From: Stutzerimonas stutzeri
GTDB lineage: Bacteria; Pseudomonadota; Gammaproteobacteria; Pseudomonadales; Pseudomonadaceae
Assembly: GCF_002909485.1 (NCBI RefSeq)
Contig: NZ_PPXG01000002.1
Location: 310,001 to 374,000, forward strand
DNA length: 64,000 nt
Direction: 5' to 3'
Part shown: positions 34,714-37,328 of the stretch, in pieces
Numbering within the stretch: the first letter of the stretch is position 1
Layout: every line of letters starts with the position of its first letter
Made by a program: the position numbers and the translations under genes
Notes under the pieces: model-generated
What the model was told of the DNA's origin: nothing
Database searches by the model: none
The model's input: the letters and a program-made list of their open reading frames with translations, nothing else

Positions 34714-34831
34714 CACGCAACACCTGAACGAATGTGTGCTGCAGGGCTTCTGTACTTAGGCATCGGCGGCCTCCTGACGTTAAGCGGAACCTGTGGTCAG
34801 TTGAGTCTAAAAGCAGGAAAACGTTCGTGTG

Positions 34832-34868
34832 CTTATCCACCGCAGCTGTGCGTCGTGCTGTGGATAAG
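34832..34868. repeat. 37-bp palindromic element, copy 1 (inverted DnaA boxes)
   Basis: Starts CTTATCCAC and ends GTGGATAAG, perfect 9-bp arms. The right arm extends to TGTGGATAA, an exact match to the DnaA box; the left arm (TTATCCACC) has one mismatch. The centre reads CGCAGCTGTGCGTCGTGCT. Confidence 0.75.
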
Positions 34869-34992
34869 CTTGGGGCTGTTCACTGCGAAGTAGATGGCAC
34901 TAGGCGCTGAGGTGGCTGATCAATAAATGACCGTTTCGCTCCAGAATGGCCGGTGGGCTAAAAAACTTAGGCTTTCCCGGCCGGCTCGCCCG

Positions 34993-35029
34993 CTTATCCA
35001 CCGTAGCTGTGGACGCTGCTGTGGATAAG
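34993..35029. repeat. 37-bp palindromic element, copy 2 (inverted DnaA boxes)
   Basis: Same length and layout as copy 1: CTTATCCAC, then CGTAGCTGTGGACGCTGCT, then GTGGATAAG. Again one exact DnaA box (TGTGGATAA) and one with a single mismatch, plus an internal AGCTGTGGA half-site. It is 161 bp from copy 1. Confidence 0.75.
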
Positions 35030-35111
35030 GTGGGGGGTTAGTGCTGCAAGCTGCACAGATCGTAGCTTTCAAGGTGTAGATTGAATTTTGATCAGCGTGC
35101 CTGCATTACCA

Positions 35112-35705
35112 TCAAGGGTCAAAGCGGTCTGTCTTCGCCCAACGACTATGCGTTGGCGGCTCCCACGCATCGAGTAGCTTGATGAGTGCTTGCGGCTGGT
35201 CGCTGCGCTGTAGCATCTCGCGATGTTGCGCACGCACGAAGCCTTCTTCGACCAGGTGATCTAGGAAGTGGCTGAGCTTGCTGTAGAAGTGATTGACGTC
35301 TAGCAGTCCAAGCGGTTTGGGATGGTAGCCGAGCTGGCCCCAGGTCCAGACCTCGAAGAGTTCTTCCAGTGTTCCCAGCCCGCCAGGCAGGGCAATAAAG
35401 GCATCGGCCAGTTCTGCCATGCGCGCTTTGCGCGCGTGCATGCCGTCGACCACTTCCAAGCGGGTAAGGCCGGTATGACCAACCTCGGCATCTTTCAGGC
35501 TTTGGGGAATGATGCCGATAACCTCGCCACCGGCAGCCATGGTGGCGTCTGCAACCACCCCCATCAACCCGACTGCGCCGCCGCCGTAGATCAGTTGAAT
35601 GCCGTTAGCGGCCAGCGTGCGGCCGAGATTGTGGGCCGCTTGTTCATAAATGGGGTTTGAGCCGCGGCTGGCGCCGCAGAAAACGCAAATGGAACGCAGG
35701 GACAT
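35112..35705 (-). CDS. LOG family protein (cytokinin riboside 5'-monophosphate phosphoribohydrolase type)
   Basis: Cytoplasmic nucleotide-processing enzyme of the Lonely Guy/TIGR00730 family, 197 residues. [20 protein letters not shown] at the N-terminus, [23 protein letters not shown], and the active-site motif [20 protein letters not shown] are intact. Family members cleave the N-glycosidic bond of nucleoside 5'-monophosphates. The gene stands alone, flanked on both sides by DnaA-box-type palindromes. Confidence 0.93.
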
Positions 35706-35969
35706 CTTCTACTCCGCTCATTGGGGCTTGCGCAAGGTTACGCCGCCGACCTCATGTGGCCAAGTGGACCAACCCATCAGCGCAAACGCAGTGAGTCAGC
35801 GTGCGTCGGCGGCGGATGCATAGGCAGCGAACAGATGCTTGAGCAGAAAGCGGCTGGACATAATCGATCCCCTCGAAAAGCATTACGTCCATCCTAGGGC
35901 GGTGAAGTCCGACGCGCTTTTAGAATCTTGTTATTGCCGCCATAGCCCTCGCTTATTCAGGGGAGATTT

Positions 35970-36004
35970 TTATCCCCGAATCTTGTGCGCGTTTCTGTGG
36001 ATAA
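35970..36004. repeat. DnaA-box-type element, copy 3
   Basis: Begins TTATCCCCG and ends in an exact DnaA box TGTGGATAA (35996-36004); spans 35 bp, the same box-to-box distance as copies 1 and 2, and shares TGTGCG at the same internal position as copy 1. The left arm has decayed (TTATCCCCG). Confidence 0.6.
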
Positions 36005-36167
36005 CCTTTGTGCAAGTAGCGGAAAGCCAAGCGCCGCGGGCGTCTCTGAGTTATGTGTGTTTTTTGCTCAGCGCATTGAGGTGCGACGGAAAGCCCCATT
36101 GCAGAGAGCGTGCAGCATCGGTGGTGAGTTTGATGACTGAAATTGCCAGCGGACAGAGCCCTTGTAC

Positions 36168-36202
36168 TTATTCACCAAAGCTGTGGAAAACTCTGTGTGC
36201 AG
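36168..36202. repeat. DnaA-box-type element, degenerate copy 4
   Basis: Starts TTATTCACC and contains AGCTGTGGA at the same offset as copy 2; the right box is lost. CTGTGGAAAACTCTGTGTGC here also resembles the right flank of copy 3 (CTGTGGATAACCTTTGTGC). Confidence 0.45.
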
Positions 36203-36416
36203 TTTGGGTAAACATCGCTGTGGCCCTGCGTTCTCGTAGCCTCTCATCCACATGGTTGAAAACTACGCACTCGTCCTGCCGCAAAGCCCGCGTCTCGGTT
36301 ATCCCCGAGTCTTATGCCGCGGCATTCATTTCTGGCCGGTTGGTTGTGAGGTGCTATCAGCTGAACGACACTCGCCGCTCTGAATCAACCAATAAGAAAA
36401 GCTAAGGGAGATCCCG

Positions 36417-37328
36417 ATGACTGATGCTATCCGCTTCGAAGACAAGGTAGTGATCGTGACCGGAGCAGGCGGCGGGCTCGGGCGAGCCCATGCGCTGCTG
36501 TTTGCTCGTCATGGCGCGAAAGTCGTGGTCAACGATCTGGGCGGCAGTGCTCAGGGCGAAGGCGCCAACAGTTCCGCAGCCGATCGCGTGGTCGAGGAGA
36601 TCCGCCAGGCGGGCGGCATTGCCGTCGCCAATCATTGCTCGGTCACCGATGGCGATCGGATCGTACAGCAGGCTCTGGATTCCTTCGGTCGTATCGACGT
36701 GGTCGTCAATAACGCAGGCATTCTGCGTGACAAAAGCTTCCACAAGATGGAAGACGCCGATTGGGACCTGGTCTATCGCGTGCACGTTGAGGGTGCCTAC
36801 AAGGTCACCCGTGCAGCCTGGCCGCACATGCGCGAGCAGAGTTACGGGCGAGTAATCTTCACCGCTTCGACATCCGGCATTTATGGCAACTTCGGTCAGT
36901 CGAACTATGGGATGGCCAAGCTTGGTCTGTACGGCTTGACTCGCACGCTGGCTCTGGAAGGCCGCAAGAACAACGTGCTGGTGAACGCCATCGCGCCCAC
37001 CGGCGCTACACGGATGACTGAAGGGTTGATTCCACCGCAAGTGTTTGAACAGCTCAAACCGGAACTGGTGAGCCCGCTAGTGGTTTATCTGGCCAGTGAG
37101 CAGTGCCAGGAGACATCGGGCCTGTTCGAGGTTGGCGGCGGCTGGATGGGCAAGGTGCGCTGGGAGCGCAGCCTTGGTGTGGGCTTCGATCCGAAGGCCG
37201 GCTTCGATGCCGAGGACGTCGCAGCTCAATGGCAGCAGATCTGCAGTTTCGAAAACGCTGCGCACCCGGCCGACAACATCGAAGCGTTGAAGGAAATGAT
37301 GGCCAACCTGCAAAAGTACGCTGGCTGA
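36417..37328 (+). CDS. Short-chain dehydrogenase, (3R)-hydroxyacyl-CoA dehydrogenase type
   Basis: NAD(P)-dependent oxidoreductase of 303 residues. TGAGGGLGRAHALLFARHGA is the cofactor loop, NNAGILRDKSFHKM the NNAG motif, and TASTSGIYGNFGQSNYGMAK holds the catalytic Ser, Tyr and Lys. The VNDLGGSAQGEG loop and the roughly 60-residue C-terminal extension (SLGVGFDPKAGFDAEDVAAQ) are like the dehydrogenase part of peroxisomal multifunctional enzyme 2, suggesting fatty-acid beta-oxidation or a related acyl-CoA substrate. AGGGAGA precedes the ATG. It stands alone, convergent with the SulP gene. Confidence 0.9.
   Translation: MTDAIRFEDKVVIVTGAGGGLGRAHALLFARHGAKVVVNDLGGSAQGEGANSSAADRVVEEIRQAGGIAVANHCSVTDGDRIVQQALDSFGRIDVVVNNAGILRDKSFHKMEDADWDLVYRVHVEGAYKVTRAAWPHMREQSYGRVIFTASTSGIYGNFGQSNYGMAKLGLYGLTRTLALEGRKNNVLVNAIAPTGATRMTEGLIPPQVFEQLKPELVSPLVVYLASEQCQETSGLFEVGGGWMGKVRWERSLGVGFDPKAGFDAEDVAAQWQQICSFENAAHPADNIEALKEMMANLQKYAG

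Follow-up and report, generated by a model that had tools for sequence, protein, structure and literature searches.

Exact DnaA boxes gathered around a LOG-family gene, on a contig other than the one that carries dnaA, raise the question of what DnaA might do at such a place. The window, by which we mean the whole stretch of DNA analysed (64,000 nucleotides of Stutzerimonas stutzeri), corresponds to C16:310001-374000 in a 4.80 Mb genome of 28 contigs. It contains the exact box TGTGGATAA three times, with starts at 34859, 35020 and 35996 and all between 34859 and 36004, compared with a mean of 0.17 in 100 shuffles of the window, none of which reached three; across the whole genome, 25 exact boxes were found against 15 for the reversed word. 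The cluster on which the original prediction was built, three exact boxes in 1.2 kb, is therefore real. Its first two elements do carry paired arms, at 34833-34867 and 34994-35028, and these are the sole exact matches of the pair type genome-wide; a third element with the same box spacing lies at 35970-36004, as had been described. The prediction was also correct that this is not oriC, with dnaA sitting on a separate contig (C27) and no turn in GC skew across the window. The observed arrangement is more regular than was first described, in that the boxes had been rightly paired but an inner third box, a Fis-like site at -65 and a dyad element had gone unnoticed. DARS function is known from E. 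coli, and by structure the array is of the DARS kind, its activity being predicted from the arrangement of its sequence elements.

On the minus strand, each unit opens with TTATCCACA; a 3-bp spacer separates this from a second box, which terminates in CACA, and a further 5 bp separate that box from an inverted one, giving box positions 1-9, 13-21 and, inverted, 27-35, the same as in both DARS cores of E. coli MG1655. Listed in the order box III, box II and inverted box I, the cores are TTATCCACA-GCA-CGACGCACA-GCTGC-GGTGGATAA in unit 1 (34833-34867), TTATCCACA-GCA-GCGTCCACA-GCTAC-GGTGGATAA in unit 2 (34994-35028) and TTATCCACA-GAA-ACGCGCACA-AGATT-CGGGGATAA in unit 3 (35970-36004), all on the minus strand. 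Against R1, a sequence-only model of the unit whose E-values are rough, they score 61.8 bits (E 2.8e-16 in its own genome), 66.1 bits (E 1.2e-17) and 57.1 bits (E 8.1e-15), respectively. A scan of the window for the three-box core, scored over 24 positions and including unit 1 among its hits, returned four sites with 4, 4, 5 and 6 mismatches, compared with two sites, both with 7, in 15 shuffles. In E. coli MG1655, the DARS1 core was located as TAATACACA-TGG-TTATCCACA-GGAAT-AGTGGATAA between bioD and uvrB, which we take to be its place in the chromosome and which the geometry found there supports, and the DARS2 core as TTCTTCACA-ACT-CTATCCACA-GAAAA-GGTGAATAA upstream of mutH. The latter assignment was confirmed by the primer stretches printed for deletion of 'DnaA box I-III' in the available sections of PMC4585315, which enclose exactly its 35 bp. 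The accessible part of PMC5742627 likewise gives the DARS core as three boxes, equally spaced in DARS1 and DARS2, with box I opposite to boxes II and III.

When all spacings from 9 to 69 were examined at 26 named LOG loci, NNNGGATAA followed TTATCCACA at 26 (70 cases) or 14 (8 cases) and at no other distance; these are the III-to-I and II-to-I distances of DARS, and thus support a DARS geometry. Each position of the inner CACA, for which no selection had been made, is conserved in 57 or more of the 59 modules. The units have their perfect box at III, and the same TTATCCACA is named as the high-affinity DnaA box of Pseudomonas putida in the portion of PMC4285127 available to us. The units therefore hold three boxes, with box I inverted, at the spacing of DARS1 and DARS2, but box II is weak: it is little conserved beyond CACA, so that the head-to-head pair of boxes I and II may be weak too, which counts against a DARS reading.

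A fourth, weaker core, CTGCACACA-GAG-TTTTCCACA-GCTTT-GGTGAATAA, lies at 36168-36202 on the minus strand (R1 only 12.5 bits), with a Fis-like site, GCGTAGTTTTCAACC, at -66 (36254-36268, minus strand; 10 of 13 consensus positions). Its box I is identical to that of E. coli DARS2, and a core occupies this place in all eight aligned sequences (the window and seven others). A degenerate copy had been proposed near here; the copy is present, but 'degenerate' does not describe a three-box core with 5 mismatches over 24 positions. The other copy, suggested near 36299, was ruled out as a further unit, as the conserved block found there differs from the core. That block, at 36301-36330 upstream of the SDR gene, reads AATGAATGCC, GCATAAG and GGAT on the minus strand and is kept in 8/8 aligned sequences; it is not a DARS core.

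Conservation extends well beyond the boxes. Flanks were aligned ungapped on box III after dereplication from 201 to 81 units, the three of the window included (an 80-sequence alignment, A1, omits the L008 core, which lacks a Fis-like site at 6/13), and they show three conserved blocks upstream of box III and little conservation downstream. One block, spanning -65 to -51, matches the Fis consensus, which we take to be GNTYAAWWWTTRANC and scored over 13 positions, with 76 of the 81 units having G at -65 and 78 having C at -51. The best Fis match within 200 bp upstream falls at exactly -65 in 69/81 units, the mean score there is 10.3/13 versus 4.1 over all offsets, and a score of at least 9/13 is reached at -66 to -63 in 79/81 units versus 0 to 7 at 27 other offsets. 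In the window, the sites at -65, all on the minus strand, are GGTCATTTATTGATC in unit 1 (34918-34932), GATCAAAATTCAATC in unit 2 (35079-35093) and GAGCAAAAAACACAC in unit 3 (36055-36069), matching 12, 12 and 9 of the 13 consensus positions. Fis itself is encoded in the genome (138 bits, above the cut-off).

The same spacing was found at 14 loci that had not been used for discovery (10 from genus g36 of the same family, two named Pseudomonas and two of the window's genus), where 40 of 44 cores score at least 9/13 at -67 to -63, the exceptions scoring 8, 8, 8 and 5; two of the original 46 rows, with Fis scores of 6 and 7, were removed as the same boxes on the other strand. Four further loci are not independent of R1, because R1 selected them: L167 has three perfect boxes and a Fis score of 12/13, L171 has 13/13 in AT-rich surroundings, and L173 and L175 score 8. 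The -65 rule is not universal, as E. coli DARS1 scores 5 and DARS2 7 of 13. Single-copy cores in the window's genome score 10 at -65 (C16:190300), 9 at -66 (C24:183704) and 7 at -65 (C26:296026), and a single core in G011 scores 8 at -66.

Between the Fis-like site and the core, the 81 units share a dyad-symmetric element at -44 to -16, located on the minus strand at 34883-34911 in unit 1, where the symmetry is not visible by eye, and, by the 81-unit alignment, at 35044-35072 in unit 2 and 36020-36048 in unit 3. Its arms (-44 to -34 and -26 to -16) form 4.83 of 11 pairs on average versus 2.5 to 3.3 when slid. Arms shuffled among units still form 4.51 pairs (maximum of 2000 shuffles 5.0), so the symmetry is real yet mostly a matter of shared sequence, and a structural hairpin was rejected for want of clear covariation. 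The copy at L172:1524-1552, unlike most units, is a near-perfect inverted repeat with 10/11 pairs. A short block, approximately CC(C/A)NAG(G/C), abuts box III. No consistent IHF site emerged when the 81 flanks were scored; its best mean of 4.6/9, versus 10.3/13 for Fis at -65, led us to reject IHF as the conserved flank protein.

The array also keeps a constant place on the chromosome. In all 13 genomes with the array, dnaA and dif on one contig, it lies at 0.48 of the replichore (SD 0.04, range 0.43-0.55), a count in which 12 of the 13 genome sizes were rounded to 0.1 Mb (four recomputed exactly gave 0.475 to 0.487) and G028 was assumed to be NZ_CP090366.1. Of 17 genomes searched for dnaA and dif, four (G000, G024, G029 and G072) were omitted, their sites being on different contigs. 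The array is on the left arm in eight genomes and on the right in five, with the TTATCCACA strand always running toward oriC. Shared gene order together with origin-centred inversions could explain part of this constancy. A second array, of the type on C23, was placed in two genomes (G071 and G027, that of G027 being equated with the C23 type by sequence likeness), where it sits on the opposite arm at 0.34 and 0.39. With oriC and dif coordinates that we take to be those of E. coli, DARS2 falls at 0.41 and DARS1 at 0.66, on opposite arms.

Geometry, flank and position all bear on the possibility that the boxes merely sequester DnaA and leave its nucleotide unexchanged. A run of three exact boxes within 1.2 kb is what a titration cluster would offer, and E. 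coli DnaA is reportedly titrated on the chromosome, a large share of it at DARS1, DARS2 and datA, according to the accessible part of PMC12371093. However, titration needs a number of boxes, not a fixed three-box geometry, a Fis spacing or a dyad, and the same portion of that source places the peak of E. coli box density near oriC, whereas the array is at mid-arm; we regard titration as unlikely.

The LOG-family gene inside the array (35112-35705, minus strand; Pfam PF03641) looks incidental to it. Relatives of the LOG locus nearest to the window share 92-94% identity and are mostly named Stutzerimonas. At least two modules surround LOG, at no more than 2 mismatches, in 27 of 80 named loci, always with a 19-bp gap although 17 to 21 were allowed, while the other 53, among which one (S. 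kirkiae) bears the name Stutzerimonas, have no modules in the stretch covered around LOG, which reaches up to 4 kb on each side. In G067 and G071, modules stand together beside the same neighbours (SDR and MgtC side, ORFs judged by eye) with no LOG between them, and LOG therefore does not look part of the system; with units absent from 53/80 LOG loci as well, the association was rejected. Regulation of neighbouring genes (LOG, DUF2726 or SDR) through DnaA and Fis sites might still be imagined, as both proteins can act as transcription factors and the units are intergenic. Yet the units flank LOG on its upstream and its downstream side while all facing the same way, persist in G067 and G071 without LOG between them, and recur at other loci of the genome and in other Pseudomonadaceae, making transcriptional control improbable.

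A datA-like site promoting hydrolysis of DnaA-bound ATP, which the original prediction had offered beside DARS, is highly improbable. The available text of PMC5742627 describes datA as an intergenic DnaA-box cluster with a nucleoid protein, a description that this locus would fit in part, but also states that IHF is required and that the essential boxes of datA all face the same way, unlike the units, whose box I is inverted and whose flanks showed no consistent IHF site.

How often the unit occurs decides whether it could be a repeat family or mobile element carrying DnaA-like boxes by chance. In the window's genome, the 35-bp pattern at up to 3 mismatches occupies eight places, the three perfect ones all in the cluster, and R1, with its rough E-values, finds six strong units (E ≤3.8e-9), three here, two on C23 and one at C16:190232, the next match having E 0.003. 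Such numbers fall short of the tens to hundreds of copies of a REP-like family, and they exclude a high-copy repeat, the 'repetitive palindromic family' of the original prediction, from this 4.8 Mb genome. Across the genus, the core at no more than one mismatch is present in 54 of 56 genomes, with none for the reversed-pattern control; in the family it is present in 195 of 298 genomes and 12 of 19 genera, and was absent at that threshold from 103, including all 13 of g27 and all 8 of g31. A class-wide R1 search, run with stricter filters and an E limit of 1e-4, matched 104 of 229 genomes, of which 102 belong to other genera; among the matches listed, many are near full model length and some are partial. 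Tandem copies (seven units at L162, five at L158 and three at L159) and a core without a Fis-like site on plasmids are features that a mobile repeat might show, but six strong units per genome, class-wide spread and constant internal spacing make this a very doubtful account.

Several related loci were observed alongside. The genome of the window holds a further array at L143 (G000:C23:344043-344352), made up of two units. At L142:6301-6335 (G000:C16:190300), one core stands alone beside a long ORF that by eye resembles an ATP-dependent protease; its box II is perfect and it has a Fis-like site at -65. Similar cores occur in G007, G242 and G011, of which the first two match the Fis consensus well at -65 and the last does not. 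The plasmid-borne, DARS-core-like sequence at L008 (G031:C160:25923-25957) is a 35-bp three-box core without a Fis-like site (6/13); it is also found in G017, G069 and G074, and its surroundings (0.9 kb) occur on large Pseudomonadaceae plasmids in 4 of 72,556 records.

That the cluster is a secondary replication origin is barely credible; work on two putative origins in P. aeruginosa reportedly exists. In favour of an origin, these are defined by clusters of DnaA boxes, and within 34717-36417 the 40-mer richest in AT (35055-35094, 65% AT) lies above the 99th percentile of the window, 57.5%, although it covers the Fis-like site of unit 2. Against it, GC skew does not turn across the window, and the dnaA region on C27 has no three-box core better than 8 mismatches and only a partial R1 match of 17.6 bits.

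We return to DARS, the other function first proposed, which is strongly supported by box number, orientation and exact spacing, by the Fis-like site and by the mid-replichore position. The DnaA of Stutzerimonas is identical to E. coli DnaA at 324 of 467 residues and keeps 15 of 15 residues checked, among them D269, R285, L290, R399, H434 and T435. Residues for box recognition are thus retained together with Asp269, named for DARS1, and Leu290, named for DARS2, in the accessible part of PMC5742627. In our judgement, the array is probably a multi-copy DARS, a variant of the known kind, in which Fis would serve as co-activator for the recharging of ADP-DnaA. After initiation, when most DnaA carries ADP, the protein would bind boxes I to III of every 35-bp core, and the molecules lying head to head on boxes I and II would have their ADP loosened. 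On the side of box III, Fis at its site 65 bp upstream would act with a factor bound to the dyad to bend the flank into contact with the DnaA complex, driving ADP release. The resulting apo-DnaA would take up ATP, raising the amount of initiation-competent DnaA in the cell, with several mid-replichore units presumably setting the dose and timing of recharging. Besides the weak box II, points that speak against this reading are the lack of a consistent IHF site, which DARS2 needs, the exceptions to the -65 rule, the weak flank-only ranks of DARS2 and the G011 core, and the 103 family genomes in which no core was found at up to one mismatch.

DARS or similar sequences are mentioned for a number of Gammaproteobacteria or proteobacteria in the available parts of PMC4451416 and PMC10380432, the former crediting Fujimitsu et al. 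2009 for the Gammaproteobacteria, and the DARS2 homologues displayed in the accessible part of PMC8682772 are from E. coli-proximal species. Our literature search found no description of DARS in Pseudomonas or Stutzerimonas, although the founding DARS paper may list relatives. Nor did the fixed Fis-like site, the dyad or the arrays appear in the accessible portions of the DARS literature, namely PMC5742627, PMC4245941, PMC4585315, PMC8682772, PMC10380432, PMC4285127, PMC8203912, PMC4451416 and PMC12371093. A broader reading, to which we give even odds, is that the widespread gammaproteobacterial DARS is a unit of ~100 bp comprising a Fis site, a dyad for a third factor and a three-box core at fixed spacing. 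The DARS2 of E. coli, which has IHF sites, would then be a derivative of this unit, and the flank of DARS1, so far poorly explained, would be the same dyad. With the unit multiplied in Pseudomonadaceae into arrays of up to seven per locus, the number of units would determine how strongly DnaA is recharged. Should the units act as we infer, DnaA recharging would become testable in pseudomonads, the differing unit numbers would provide a natural dose series, Fis would be tied directly to initiation timing beyond E. coli, and the dyad would point to an additional factor that binds it.

Set against the known systems, the array resembles datA in being an intergenic DnaA-box cluster, but differs in its inverted box I, the essential datA boxes all facing one direction and depending on IHF in the accessible part of PMC5742627; same-direction boxes with a consistent IHF site were not found here. 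DARS1 is closer. Its core geometry is equal; the R1 match, over model positions 23-107, scores 28.3 bits; and a flank-only profile places its flank at rank 3 of 15,902 positions. Besides this similarity to DARS1, the flank of the units shows the Fis-like site at -65, and a consistent IHF site was not found in it. The ~50-bp regulatory region of DARS1, which enhances ADP release in vitro according to the same portion of PMC5742627, may lie on either side of the core. DARS1 differs in having no Fis consensus at -65 (5/13), in being one site, and in that its perfect box is box II. For comparison, the flank-only profile ranks single-copy cores of the window's genome 42 of 19,902, 61 of 21,902 and 218 of 25,902; the fourth core of the window comes at 130 of 19,900, and the rank of the single core in G011 is weak (2052 of 19,902).

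With DARS2, the array shares its mid-arm position and a 35-bp core in which boxes III, II and inverted I are spaced identically; Fis sites, required in DARS2 according to the available text of PMC4245941, may have their counterpart in the Fis-like sites of the units. R1 matches DARS2 with 15.6 bits over model positions 42-106, and the flank-only rank is weak (527 of 19,902). DARS2 is one site, whereas three to four units share one locus here; its core has no perfect box, whereas box III of the units is perfect; and it needs two IHF sites, whereas the units lack a consistent one and instead carry a dyad between the Fis-like site and the core, somewhat nearer than the IHF-like sequences of DARS2. 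In DARS2, two matches resembling IHF sites, at -87 and -71, are separated by 3 bp, and the highest-scoring Fis match falls at -125; the accessible part of PMC4245941 places IBS1 and IBS2 3 bp apart, with translocation tests setting IBS1-2 between the core and FBS2-3. From these positions and that layout, Fis in the Stutzerimonas unit seems to occupy the side that it has in DARS2, only nearer to the core, with the dyad apparently taking the place of IHF.
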